In this document: one piece after another, positions 47,591-50,274 of the stretch
How the letters are laid out: every line of letters starts with the position of its first letter
How positions within the stretch are numbered: the first letter of the stretch is position 1
Source of the DNA: Amycolatopsis lexingtonensis
GTDB lineage: Bacteria; Actinomycetota; Actinomycetes; Mycobacteriales; Pseudonocardiaceae
Assembly: GCF_014873755.1 (NCBI RefSeq)
Contig: NZ_JADBEG010000001.1
Span: 4,900,501-4,964,500 of the forward strand
Direction: 5' to 3'
DNA length: 64,000 nucleotides
Made by a program: the position numbers and the translations under genes
Notes under the pieces: generated by a model
Told to the model about the DNA's origin: nothing
Database searches by the model: none
The model's input: only the letters and a program-made list of their open reading frames with translations

Positions 47591-48484
47591 CTACCCCTGG
47601 AGGAAATCTTTGACCGACAACGCCAGTGATCCCGCGTCGAGACCGTGGGCCAGGTCGTGGTCCGCGATGCCGCCGTAGGTCCGGACTTCGGTGTCCCGGC
47701 GGACCCCGAGCGACCGCAACCGGTGCGGCACGTCGGAAAGCGCCTCCGCGACCCAGTGCGCGGACGTCCCGGCCAGGTACGGCTCGACCAGCACCACCTC
47801 CGGCGAGGCGGCCAAGGCGGCCGCGCGCAGGCCCGCGGCGTCGAACGGGCGGATCGTCGAGGCGTAGAGCACCGTGACGTCGAGGCCCGCCGTCGCGCGC
47901 AGGACGCGGTCCAGCACCGGCCCGACGGCCACGACCACTCCGCGCGAGCCCGCGCGCAGGCGCGTGAAGCCGACGCCGAGGTGCGGCGACGCGTTCTCCT
48001 GGGCCGAAAGGCGCAGGTAGATCCGGCCGTCACCGGGGATCGACTCGAGCAGCAGCCGGCGCGCCTCGTCCGGGTGACCCGGCACGTGCACGGTCCAGCC
48101 CGGCAGCGAATCGATCAGCGCGACGTCGCCCGGGGACTGGTGGGTGCGCCCGGCCGTCGACATGTCGTAGGAGGCGCCGTAGGAGACCAGGACTCCCCCG
48201 GCCTCCTGGTGGGAGAAGTCGAGCTTGATCTGCTCGAAGGCGCGCTCCACCAGGAACGACGGGAACGTGTGCACGATCGGCCGCAGGCCGGCGAGCGCCA
48301 GCCCGGCGCCCGCGCTGACCAGCAGCTGCTCGCGGATGCCGACGTTGATCACCCGGTCCGGGTGCCGCCGGGCGGCGCCCGCAAGCTGGGCGGCCGAAAT
48401 GTCGGCCAGCACGACGGCGACGTCCGGGTCCGCGTCGAGGATCTCTTCGGTGGTGCTCAGGAACACTTCGCGCATCGACGGCAT
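47591..48484 (-). CDS. Transketolase, C-terminal subunit
   Basis: 297-aa second half of a split transketolase. It has the pyrimidine-binding domain (VAVVLADISAAQLAGAARRHPDRVINVGIREQLLVSAGAGLALAGLRP, with the Glu for thiamine activation in GIREQ) and the C-terminal domain (VLYASTIRPFDAAGL, VVLVEPY). It starts 2 bp after the N-terminal subunit gene, so both are made together. Split forms are known in several bacteria. Controlled by the SoxR-type promoter upstream of the first gene. Confidence 0.88.
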   Translation of the reverse strand: MPSMREVFLSTTEEILDADPDVAVVLADISAAQLAGAARRHPDRVINVGIREQLLVSAGAGLALAGLRPIVHTFPSFLVERAFEQIKLDFSHQEAGGVLVSYGASYDMSTAGRTHQSPGDVALIDSLPGWTVHVPGHPDEARRLLLESIPGDGRIYLRLSAQENASPHLGVGFTRLRAGSRGVVVAVGPVLDRVLRATAGLDVTVLYASTIRPFDAAGLRAAALAASPEVVLVEPYLAGTSAHWVAEALSDVPHRLRSLGVRRDTEVRTYGGIADHDLAHGLDAGSLALSVKDFLQG

Positions 48485-48486
48485 GG

Positions 48487-49179
48487 TCAGCCCTTCGGTT
48501 CGACGACGGCGACCACCGCGAGCGGGCGGCCGGGGTGGGCGGTGGTGAAGGCGTCGTAGAGCGCGTCGTGGTCGCGGCCGGGCACCGTGCGGGTCTCCCA
48601 GCCTTCGACGGCGAAGCGGCGGGCGATGCCGCCCGGCCAACCGCGCGTCGAGGACTGGTTGTCGATCACCACCGCGGTGAGGTTCTCCAGGCCGGCGCGG
48701 GCCGCGACGACGATCGCCTCGTGGTTGGAGCCCTCGTCGAGCTCGGCGTCGCCGACGAGCGTCACGACCTTCGGCCCGGTCAGGCCGCGAGCGCGCAGGC
48801 CGAGCGCGGTGCCGAACGCGATGGGGAGGCCGTGGCCGAGGGACCCGCTGGAGATCTCGACGCCGGGGACCCGGCGCCGGTCGGGGTGGTGGCCGAGCCG
48901 CGACACCGGGTCGGACCAGGTCGGGAGTTCGGCTTCGTCGAGGAAGCCCTTGGCGGTGAGCACGGCGTAGTACGCCATCGGGCCGTGCCCTTTGGACAGC
49001 AGGAAACGGTCGCGATCGGGCTCGCGGAAGTTTTCGGGCGTGACGTCGAGGACGCGGTCGTAGAGCACCCACAGGACGTCCACAGTGGACTCCGCGGCGG
49101 CGCTGTGCTTGTCGTCACCGGTCATCAGCGAGATCAGCCGCGGCAAGTCGGCGTAGCCCGGTTCGGTCGCAGTGGTCAT
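48487..49179 (-). CDS. Transketolase, N-terminal (TPP-binding) subunit
   Basis: 230-aa first half of a split transketolase. It has the TPP diphosphate motif GDG-like VTLVGDAELDEGSNHEA...NLTAVVIDNQSS, GHGPMAYYAVL and HPDRRRVPGVEISSGSLGHGLPIAFGTALG. ATG 49179 lies 6 nt after a CATGGT -10, so it is probably leaderless. The likely reaction is two-carbon ketol transfer between sugar phosphates, but the true substrate of this split form is open. It is divergent from soxR. Confidence 0.88.
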   Translation of the reverse strand: MTTATEPGYADLPRLISLMTGDDKHSAAAESTVDVLWVLYDRVLDVTPENFREPDRDRFLLSKGHGPMAYYAVLTAKGFLDEAELPTWSDPVSRLGHHPDRRRVPGVEISSGSLGHGLPIAFGTALGLRARGLTGPKVVTLVGDAELDEGSNHEAIVVAARAGLENLTAVVIDNQSSTRGWPGGIARRFAVEGWETRTVPGRDHDALYDAFTTAHPGRPLAVVAVVEPKG

Positions 49180-49185
49180 GAGCCG

Positions 49186-49216
49186 ACCATGCAACCTCGA
49201 CTAAACTCGAAGTCAA
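49186..49216 (-). promoter_or_regulatory. SoxR-type promoter of the transketolase genes
   Basis: Minus strand TTGACT (49216-49211), 19-bp spacer, CATGGT (49191-49186), leaderless ATG 6 nt later. The spacer holds an imperfect dyad around CCTCGACT and CTCGAAG, close to the CCTCAAG-type SoxR box. The 19-bp spacer marks MerR-class activation. Confidence 0.75.
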
Positions 49217-49219
49217 GGA

Positions 49220-49225
49220 TAGCCT
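49220..49225 (+). promoter_or_regulatory. -10 element of soxR, leaderless
   Basis: TAGCCT ends 6 nt before GTG 49232, adjoining the divergent SoxR-box promoter. Confidence 0.5.
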
Positions 49226-49231
49226 GAGCAG

Positions 49232-49693
49232 GTGACGAGGCTCGCTGAACATCTCAGCATCGGACAGGTGGCGGAACGCAGCGGGGTGCCGCACACGGCA
49301 TTGCGGTTCTACGAGGAGAAGGGGCTGATCAGCTCGGAGCGCTCCGCGGGCAACCAGCGGCGCTACCCGCGCTCGGTGCTGCGCCGGATCGCGTTCATCC
49401 GCGCCGCGCAACGGGTCGGGCTTTCCCTGGAGGACATCAGTTCCGCGCTGGCGACCCTGCCCGAGGACCACGCCCCGACGAAGGCGGACTGGGCGAGGCT
49501 GTCGCGCGACTGGCAGCAGGAGCTCGACGCGCGGATCGATGCGCTGCAACGCCTTCGAGACCGCCTGACCGGCTGCGTCGGCTGCGGCTGCCTTTCCCTG
49601 CGCAGCTGCGCGCTCTACAACAACGACGACGAGCTGGCCCGCTATGGCCCGGGCGCGAGCAAACTGCGTCCGGCGGTCGAGGGCGGCATTTAA
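49232..49693 (+). CDS. soxR: Redox-sensing activator SoxR
   Basis: 153-aa MerR-family regulator with the winged helix (IGQVAERSGVPHTALRFYEEKGLI), a coiled coil (about 85-113), and the [2Fe-2S] cysteines C115, C118, C120 and C126 in the C-x2-C-x-C-x5-C pattern. Oxidation of the cluster by redox-cycling compounds activates target promoters. In actinomycetes SoxR answers to secreted pigments or quinones. The only clear target in view is the divergent transketolase operon. Confidence 0.93.
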   Translation: MTRLAEHLSIGQVAERSGVPHTALRFYEEKGLISSERSAGNQRRYPRSVLRRIAFIRAAQRVGLSLEDISSALATLPEDHAPTKADWARLSRDWQQELDARIDALQRLRDRLTGCVGCGCLSLRSCALYNNDDELARYGPGASKLRPAVEGGI

Positions 49694-49725: not shown

Positions 49726-50274
49726 ATGAACGAAAAGCACTTGATCCGCATCTCGAAACGGCTGGCCCGGCACCTGCGCCACGATCCCGCCGGCCTCGGC
49801 CTCACCCTCACCCCGGACGGCTGGGTGAACGTCGAAACCCTCCTCCGCGCCCTGCGCGCACACGGGTTCGCGGTCACCCGCGAACAGCTCGGCGAAGTCG
49901 TCGAGCAGAACAACAAGCGCCGCTTCGCGTTCGACGAAACGGGCACCCGCATCCGCGCGAGCCAGGGCCACAGCGTGGCGGTCGACCTGGGCCTGCCGGA
50001 CGCGGACCCGCCGGCCGTGCTGTACCACGGCACGGTGTCGAAGTTCCTCGACGCGATCTTCCACGAGGGCCTGCGCCCGATGAACCGCCACGCGGTCCAC
50101 CTTTCGGCCACGACGGACACGGCTCGCACCGTAGCGGCCCGCCGCGGAAAGCCGGTCGTCCTCCGGGCCGACGCGAAGGCGATGGCGGAGGCGGGCCACG
50201 TGTTCCAGGTGAGCGCGAACGGCGTCTGGCTCACCGCGACGGTCCCGCCGGACTACCTCACGCGCCTCGCCTGA
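49726..50274 (+). CDS. kptA: RNA 2'-phosphotransferase (KptA/Tpt1)
   Basis: 182-aa enzyme of the Tpt1/KptA family, which moves a 2'-phosphate from RNA to NAD to give ADP-ribose 1'',2''-cyclic phosphate. Seen: ISKRLARHLRHDP, QNNKRRFAFDETGTRIRASQGHS with the catalytic Lys/Arg/His set, LYHGTV and HAVHLSATTD. It has a good GGGGAGGAA site. In bacteria the tRNA-splicing role is absent, so the true substrate is unknown. Overlaps the convergent TetR by 17 bp. Confidence 0.92.
   Translation: MNEKHLIRISKRLARHLRHDPAGLGLTLTPDGWVNVETLLRALRAHGFAVTREQLGEVVEQNNKRRFAFDETGTRIRASQGHSVAVDLGLPDADPPAVLYHGTVSKFLDAIFHEGLRPMNRHAVHLSATTDTARTVAARRGKPVVLRADAKAMAEAGHVFQVSANGVWLTATVPPDYLTRLA

Follow-up and report, generated by a model that had tools for sequence, protein, structure and literature searches.

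A split transketolase-like enzyme related to Rif15 and preceded by a SoxR-type promoter in Amycolatopsis lexingtonensis

Results

The window analysed here, a stretch of 64,000 nucleotides from the 10.74-Mb single-contig genome of Amycolatopsis lexingtonensis, contains a soxR gene and, divergent from it across a 52-bp intergenic gap, a two-gene minus-strand unit, tktN and tktC, encoding the two halves of a transketolase-like enzyme (Table 1). A first-pass annotation of this DNA had called the transketolase pair and a complete four-cysteine SoxR, and both calls and their coordinates are right. By its TIGR01950 score and its cysteine spacing, which is that of E. coli SoxR (compared with NC_000913), the window protein is a SoxR, with predicted [2Fe-2S] redox activity. 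Matches to PF00456 and PF02779, together with the catalytic residues, place TktN and TktC in the transketolase (ThDP) superfamily; the C-terminal domain PF02780 scores 19.7 bits on TktC, below its cut-off of 25.9. Against the NCBIfam transketolase equivalog, a model that covers both halves, TktN scores 123.7 and TktC 84.5 versus a cut-off of 488 bits.

Table 1. Genes and promoter elements of the soxR-tktNC locus, in window positions
Feature	Positions	Strand	Description
soxR	49232..49693	+	153 aa; four cluster cysteines C-x2-C-x-C-x5-C; TIGR01950 209.5 bits, cut-off 116.9
-35 TTGACT	49211..49216	-	tktN promoter, from sequence; its TTGA is included in the 194/200 count
SoxR-type palindrome (sox box)	49195..49212	-	within the promoter, between -35 and -10; 13/18 positions as in the E. 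coli soxS box; 10/10 determined positions in the tolerant pattern
-10 CATGGT	49186..49191	-	19 nt from -35; six bases before the ATG; putative leaderless start
tktN	48487..49179	-	230 aa; N-terminal (ThDP/Mg) half of a two-subunit transketolase-like enzyme; PF00456; equivalents of E. coli TktA H26, H66, H100, D155 and N185 kept
tktC	47591..48484	-	297 aa; pyrimidine-binding/C-terminal half; PF02779; E411, H473 and R358 equivalents kept; S385, H461, D469 and R520 changed

Beyond these genes, a KptA-type RNA 2'-phosphotransferase gene (window 49726-50274) begins 32 nt past soxR on the same strand; a KptA homologue lies near soxR in six loci of the genus, and a soxR-kptA unit is possible. A NUDIX gene sits 22 nt downstream of tktNC and recurs in five loci, all within the genus. 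Outside the genus, crude ORF calls at 80 loci, examined through the 30 largest clusters, gave no same-strand gene besides the pair itself in more than six loci.

The promoter TTGACT-n19-CATGGT, from which the first-pass annotation had a leaderless mRNA start at the TktN ATG (position 49179), is present, and its spacer also holds a SoxR-type palindrome that had been left unnamed; the minus-strand letters between the two hexamers are CTTCGAGTTTAGTCGAGG. In a comparison with E. coli MG1655 (soxR-soxS region), the window box shares the register of the soxS promoter, and the tolerant palindrome pattern gives the soxS box 10 of 10 as well. A sox box centred in an over-long 19-nt spacer, in the soxS register, is the architecture of a SoxR-activated promoter. 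The same palindrome may also serve soxR. From the conserved sequence we infer SoxR activation and leaderless transcription of tktN.

A single fixed pattern served to score conservation of this arrangement: TTGA and, directly after it, a palindrome matching no fewer than 8 of its 10 determined positions, with C/T and A/G allowed at two. An earlier, stricter pattern lacking TTGA had found 99 of 110 loci at 8 or more and counted too few CTTC variants; the tolerant pattern with TTGA was then used for loci and null alike. Of 200 loci scored, 194 carry TTGA plus box before tktN (178 distinct 62-mers among the 194), versus 7 of 12,725 random 270-bp windows taken from those of the 80 named public-genome loci that exceed 12 kb; the locus counts are not independent, because the loci are related and some genomes occur in two groups. 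By group, the pattern was found in 30/30 loci of the genus (30 of 78 scored), in 34/34 family loci with adjacent soxR (from 33 of 56 such genomes), in 24 of the 27 family loci where no soxR lies within 500 bp (all scored), in 77/80 named public-genome loci and in 29/29 class loci. The -10 reads NANNNT in 189 of the 194 boxed loci, and in 189 of the 194 the distance from the box to the first ATG is 15 or 16 nt. The six misses are L153, L161, L164, L225, L221 and L233; L153 and L161, both family loci, are of the Rif15 type described below, and L164 and L225 score 6 and 7 of 10. Even at 7 of 10, TTGA plus box was found in none of 12 outgroup split transketolases and in none of eight second copies of the same clade examined.

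L233 comes from a record labelled as a Chloroflexi MAG; its boxless TktN is 67% identical, which points to either transfer or a mislabelled contig. At five family loci with a longer soxR-tktN gap (L097, L100, L102, L209 and L219) a second palindrome lies nearer soxR, as if the two genes had separate operators.

The first-pass annotation had proposed a survey of soxR-transketolase neighbours as a check, and its outcome is mixed. Among 80 genomes of the genus, including that of the window, 78 carry TktN (E <= 4e-100; G037 and G072 do not) and 79 carry SoxR (E <= 1e-30), and soxR is the divergent neighbour of tktN in 78 of 78 copies. In a family sample of 150 genomes, seven of them from the genus, 147 carry SoxR (E <= 1e-40) and at least 90 carry TktN (E <= 1e-60), the latter a lower bound because G084, counted as negative, has a match beside soxR (L309). 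Divergent SoxR lies within 500 bp of 56 of the 83 family copies outside the genus; in 18 it is farther off on the same contig, three times at 0.6-1.6 kb, and for nine the contig has no SoxR among the matches listed. Across the 110 loci scored with the stricter pattern, many of them from Streptomyces, soxR was seen nearby in only 42, and 63 are boxed and have no soxR in the flank examined. Of 394 genomes surveyed across the class, 53 carry the enzyme (E <= 2e-100), and SoxR scores above the curated cut-off in 52 of these (not in G259) versus 172 of the 341 others (Fisher p 4e-13, uncorrected for relatedness).

These loci also bear on whether the box might serve autoregulation of soxR only, with the transketolase a bystander. 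The control set consisted of 47 soxR loci taken as lacking the transketolase (46 from the 53 family genomes of that kind in which soxR was among the matches listed, plus G072). In 43 of them a palindrome scoring at least 8 stands in the 260 bp upstream, as that reading would have it. TTGA plus box, however, occurs at 7 of the 47, one of which (L309) does contain a tktN match, and it is retained before tktN in most loci from which soxR is distant, the 24 of 27 given above. The palindrome can therefore serve soxR alone, whereas the -35 goes with tktN, and we regard the bystander reading as highly improbable.

A search of the 10.7-Mb genome for TTGACYTCNANNNNNNTNGARGT returned 17 sites at no more than one mismatch, nine of them exact, versus none for the reversed pattern in the same genome. 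At 12 of the 17 an ATG follows the 23-mer by 14 or 15 nt, the leaderless spacing of tktN. By Pfam, the genes behind the sites encode an FMN reductase (beside a second SoxR), three MFS transporters, a short-chain dehydrogenase, two zinc-dehydrogenase/quinone-reductase-like proteins, two N-acetyltransferases, a PNPOx-like and an NAD-binding NmrA-like protein, a metallo-beta-lactamase-fold protein, a DUF6640 protein and, with its start at a distance of about 130 nt, an Fe/Mn superoxide dismutase; the Pfam search gave no family for the genes at L300 and L301. No pentose-phosphate gene was recognized directly behind the other box sites. Given the shared sites and geometry, tktNC looks like one member of an actinomycete SoxR regulon of known kind. 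SoxR-type control through the 19-nt spacer, with a probably leaderless transcript, as the first-pass annotation had proposed, is thus backed by comparison (the 194 of 200 loci, the 17 genome sites and the ATG spacing). Control of tktNC by SoxR is strongly supported by these comparisons, and we consider the predicted link very likely to be real.

The second SoxR (L002, G000:C1:3888034-3888453; 55% identical; CIGCGCMSLAKC) has its own box, CTTCAAG-n4-CTTGAAG (L290), before the divergent FMN reductase gene. The DUF6640 gene (L294, G000:C1:7991137-7991159), with a sox box and a 14-nt ATG spacing, places a small protein without assigned function in the presumed SoxR regulon.

The genome also encodes a separate full-length canonical transketolase (C1:4310208), with 466.9 bits for PF00456 and all 17 checked residues as in E. 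coli TktA, the reference sequence being read from NC_000913. The canonical enzymes share with the window pair the thiamine and catalytic residues, F434 and F437 included by alignment besides those of Table 1; unlike the pair they are single chains, in which the four phosphate contacts are complete and the H261 segment, absent from TktN, is present. The phosphate contacts of TktA are R358, S385, H461 and R520. In the boxed-clade rows of the C-half alignment (12 of the 26 rows of A2) R358 alone of the four is kept, in 12 of 12; S385, H461, R520 and also D469 are kept in none, and the H461 position is Gly in all 12. The R358 match comes from this C-half alignment, which set an Arg there, whereas another alignment put it against a non-Arg column. 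Among 12 outgroup split enzymes R520 is kept in nine, H461 in five, S385 in four and D469 in none; as the outgroup also varies, the change is peculiar to the boxed clade only in part. The residue assignments rest on alignments because profile comparison of TktC with two canonical enzymes was weak (37% probability). The changes argue against a plain pentose-phosphate enzyme, though not conclusively.

Among solved structures, the best sequence match for each half is the split transketolase of Carboxydothermus hydrogenoformans (PDB 6yaj and 6yak; E 9e-19 and 6e-29). By alignment, its C chain retains TH...GED (H461 and D469) as well as the final Arg of YIRLGR; the window protein has neither.

We weighed the possibility that SoxR induces a spare transketolase of the pentose phosphate pathway, supplying NADPH or ribose or replacing a normal enzyme damaged by superoxide. 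Superoxide harms transketolase, and SoxS of E. coli induces zwf; the domains with their complete thiamine residues and the SoxR-type promoter are likewise as this would have it. Against it stand the separate canonical transketolase, the loss of S385, H461, D469 and R520 from every boxed-clade row when most outgroup split enzymes keep R520, and the want of a recognized pentose-phosphate gene at the other box sites. We consider this reading unlikely. The first-pass annotation had suggested that a redox-cycling signal switches on pentose-phosphate carbon flow; the canonical enzyme, the changed contacts and a nearest characterized relative, Rif15, that acts on a quinone all speak against that metabolic sense.

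Rif15 of A. mediterranei is, like the window pair, a two-subunit thiamine transketolase. According to PMC6002545, Rif15a and Rif15b with ThDP and Mg transfer a C2 unit from F6P, Xu5P, Ru5P, S7P or DHA to rifamycin S, so that a ketone becomes an ester, and no product formed once ascorbate kept the substrate reduced. According to PMC4551226, deletion of a Rif15-type pair in Salinispora abolished rifamycin and saliniketal, which fits a role in the AHBA pathway, A. mediterranei lacking rif15 still makes AHBA, so that evidence for the AHBA role conflicts, and Rif15 homologues lie 47 kb from the chaxamycin cluster.

Within the genus, 13 of 80 genomes carry a second copy at 59-63% TktN identity (14 copies among the matches listed; eight examined). 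Two such pairs, L363 and L364, have nearby genes for a methyltransferase, P450s, a thioesterase, a PapA-type acyltransferase (L363), a 3-(3-hydroxyphenyl)propionate-hydroxylase-like monooxygenase and a type II dehydroquinase, a set that fits the rifamycin cluster (named in part in PMC6002545). The rifamycin-cluster-type copies L343-L347 are 57-63% identical to the window protein in TktN and 59-61% in TktC and have the same three phosphate contacts changed; identity to Rif15, about 60%, is that of these copies, not of the published Rif15 protein. Unlike the window pair, they have no SoxR box, and where the context was examined they are part of a biosynthetic cluster.

A 65-row IQ-TREE of TktN plus TktC splits the clade from the outgroup with support of 100/99, and the first branch of the clade (L275, L278) is boxed. 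The Rif15-type clade (L153, L161, L343, L344 and L346; 100/100) has two boxed enzymes as its sister group (100/97) and lies within further supported boxed groups. Box state requires eight changes on this tree, and none of 500 shuffles needs as few. An AU test did not reject a tree in which the Rif15-type enzymes fall outside the boxed ones (p 0.122), and long outgroup branches are flagged in the tree; the direction of recruitment is therefore likely but unproven. The window enzyme belongs to the same clade as the rifamycin-cluster copies and has the same changed contacts, but it lies outside the Rif15-type subclade, whose nesting carries this AU p of 0.122. Also inside the clade is a pair on Rhodococcus fascians pFiD188, presumably that known as Fas2/Fas3 (the record itself names fas4), with a TktN part 57% identical and a nearest join that is weak by SH-aLRT (98/49). 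Unlike the window pair it shares an operon with fas4 and a P450 gene, and a box was looked for there and not found.

Discussion

The reading we favour, at roughly even confidence, is that tktNC encodes a ketol transferase resembling Rif15, induced by SoxR and acting on redox-active carbonyls, most likely a quinone or a similar compound. SoxR would bind the palindrome between the -35 and -10 of tktN, and its oxidation by a redox-cycling compound would activate the 19-nt-spacer promoter and yield a leaderless tktN-tktC mRNA, whose product would be a two-subunit ThDP C2-ketol transferase of the Rif15 family. A 2-ketose would donate the C2 unit and a redox-active quinone or similar carbonyl would accept it; the quinone would become a glycolyl ester of the hydroquinone and redox cycling would stop, a scheme built from Rif15 chemistry, the shared residues and the regulon, in which sugar phosphates would be the donor side and not the purpose. 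As the nearest studied relative adds sugar fragments to an antibiotic quinone, tktNC may defuse toxic quinones and not feed sugar metabolism. An enzyme consuming the oxidized, redox-cycling form would be what a SoxR regulon would want. Rif15 itself uses sugar-phosphate donors, so the lost phosphate contacts do not exclude such donors.

The quinone acceptor is a reasoned guess, whose chances we put at even or somewhat lower: quinone activity of the boxed members would follow by analogy from Rif15, whose own activity on quinone may be derived, as the AU result allows. Against the favoured reading, losses of H461 and S385 also occur in outgroup split enzymes, the Salinispora deletion fits an AHBA role of Rif15-type pairs, and boxes occur near soxR where tktN is absent. 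Rif15 is moreover slow, with a kcat of 0.022/min (PMC6002545), and this would be modest for a detoxifier. Ketol transfer to another carbonyl made under stress, for example a small reactive aldehyde, would draw on the same support as transfer to a quinone, since sequence does not fix the acceptor; the only characterized close relative that we found uses a quinone (PMC6002545), and we think the alternative acceptor improbable.

We know of no stress role of this sort for transketolase-type enzymes in the literature. The regulon resembles that of Streptomyces coelicolor, where PMC4146615 describes sox-box promoters before reductases and a transporter; unlike here, the six SoxR targets there include no transketolase. 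The first-pass annotation had described the link between SoxR and a transketolase as one not known. One prediction is in print, a footnote in PMC4146615 that places SAV_1623 of S. avermitilis, a 'putative transketolase', among genes with a SoxR site; among open-licence papers, we found SAV_1623 named in no other. The phrase 'split transketolase' returned no open-licence paper, none was found naming SoxR and Rif15 together, and the class-wide conservation, the regulon context and the Rif15 link were not found in the open-licence literature searched.

More tentatively, thiamine-driven C2-ketol transfer, or reductive glycolylation, may be an old actinomycete SoxR-induced defence that disarms redox-cycling quinones, from which Rif15 and other cluster copies would have been recruited with loss of the SoxR box; we rate this as somewhat less likely than not. 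If the proposals made here are true, a transketolase-type enzyme would join oxidoreductases and transporters in the actinomycete response to redox-active compounds, the soxR-adjacent split transketolase would gain a testable function, and an origin would be suggested for an unusual antibiotic-tailoring enzyme.

Two further boxless pairs, L361 and L362 (second copies L340 and L342), have ketosynthase genes within a few kb, L361 also a SnoaL-like gene, and may be further tailoring enzymes of the Rif15 kind.
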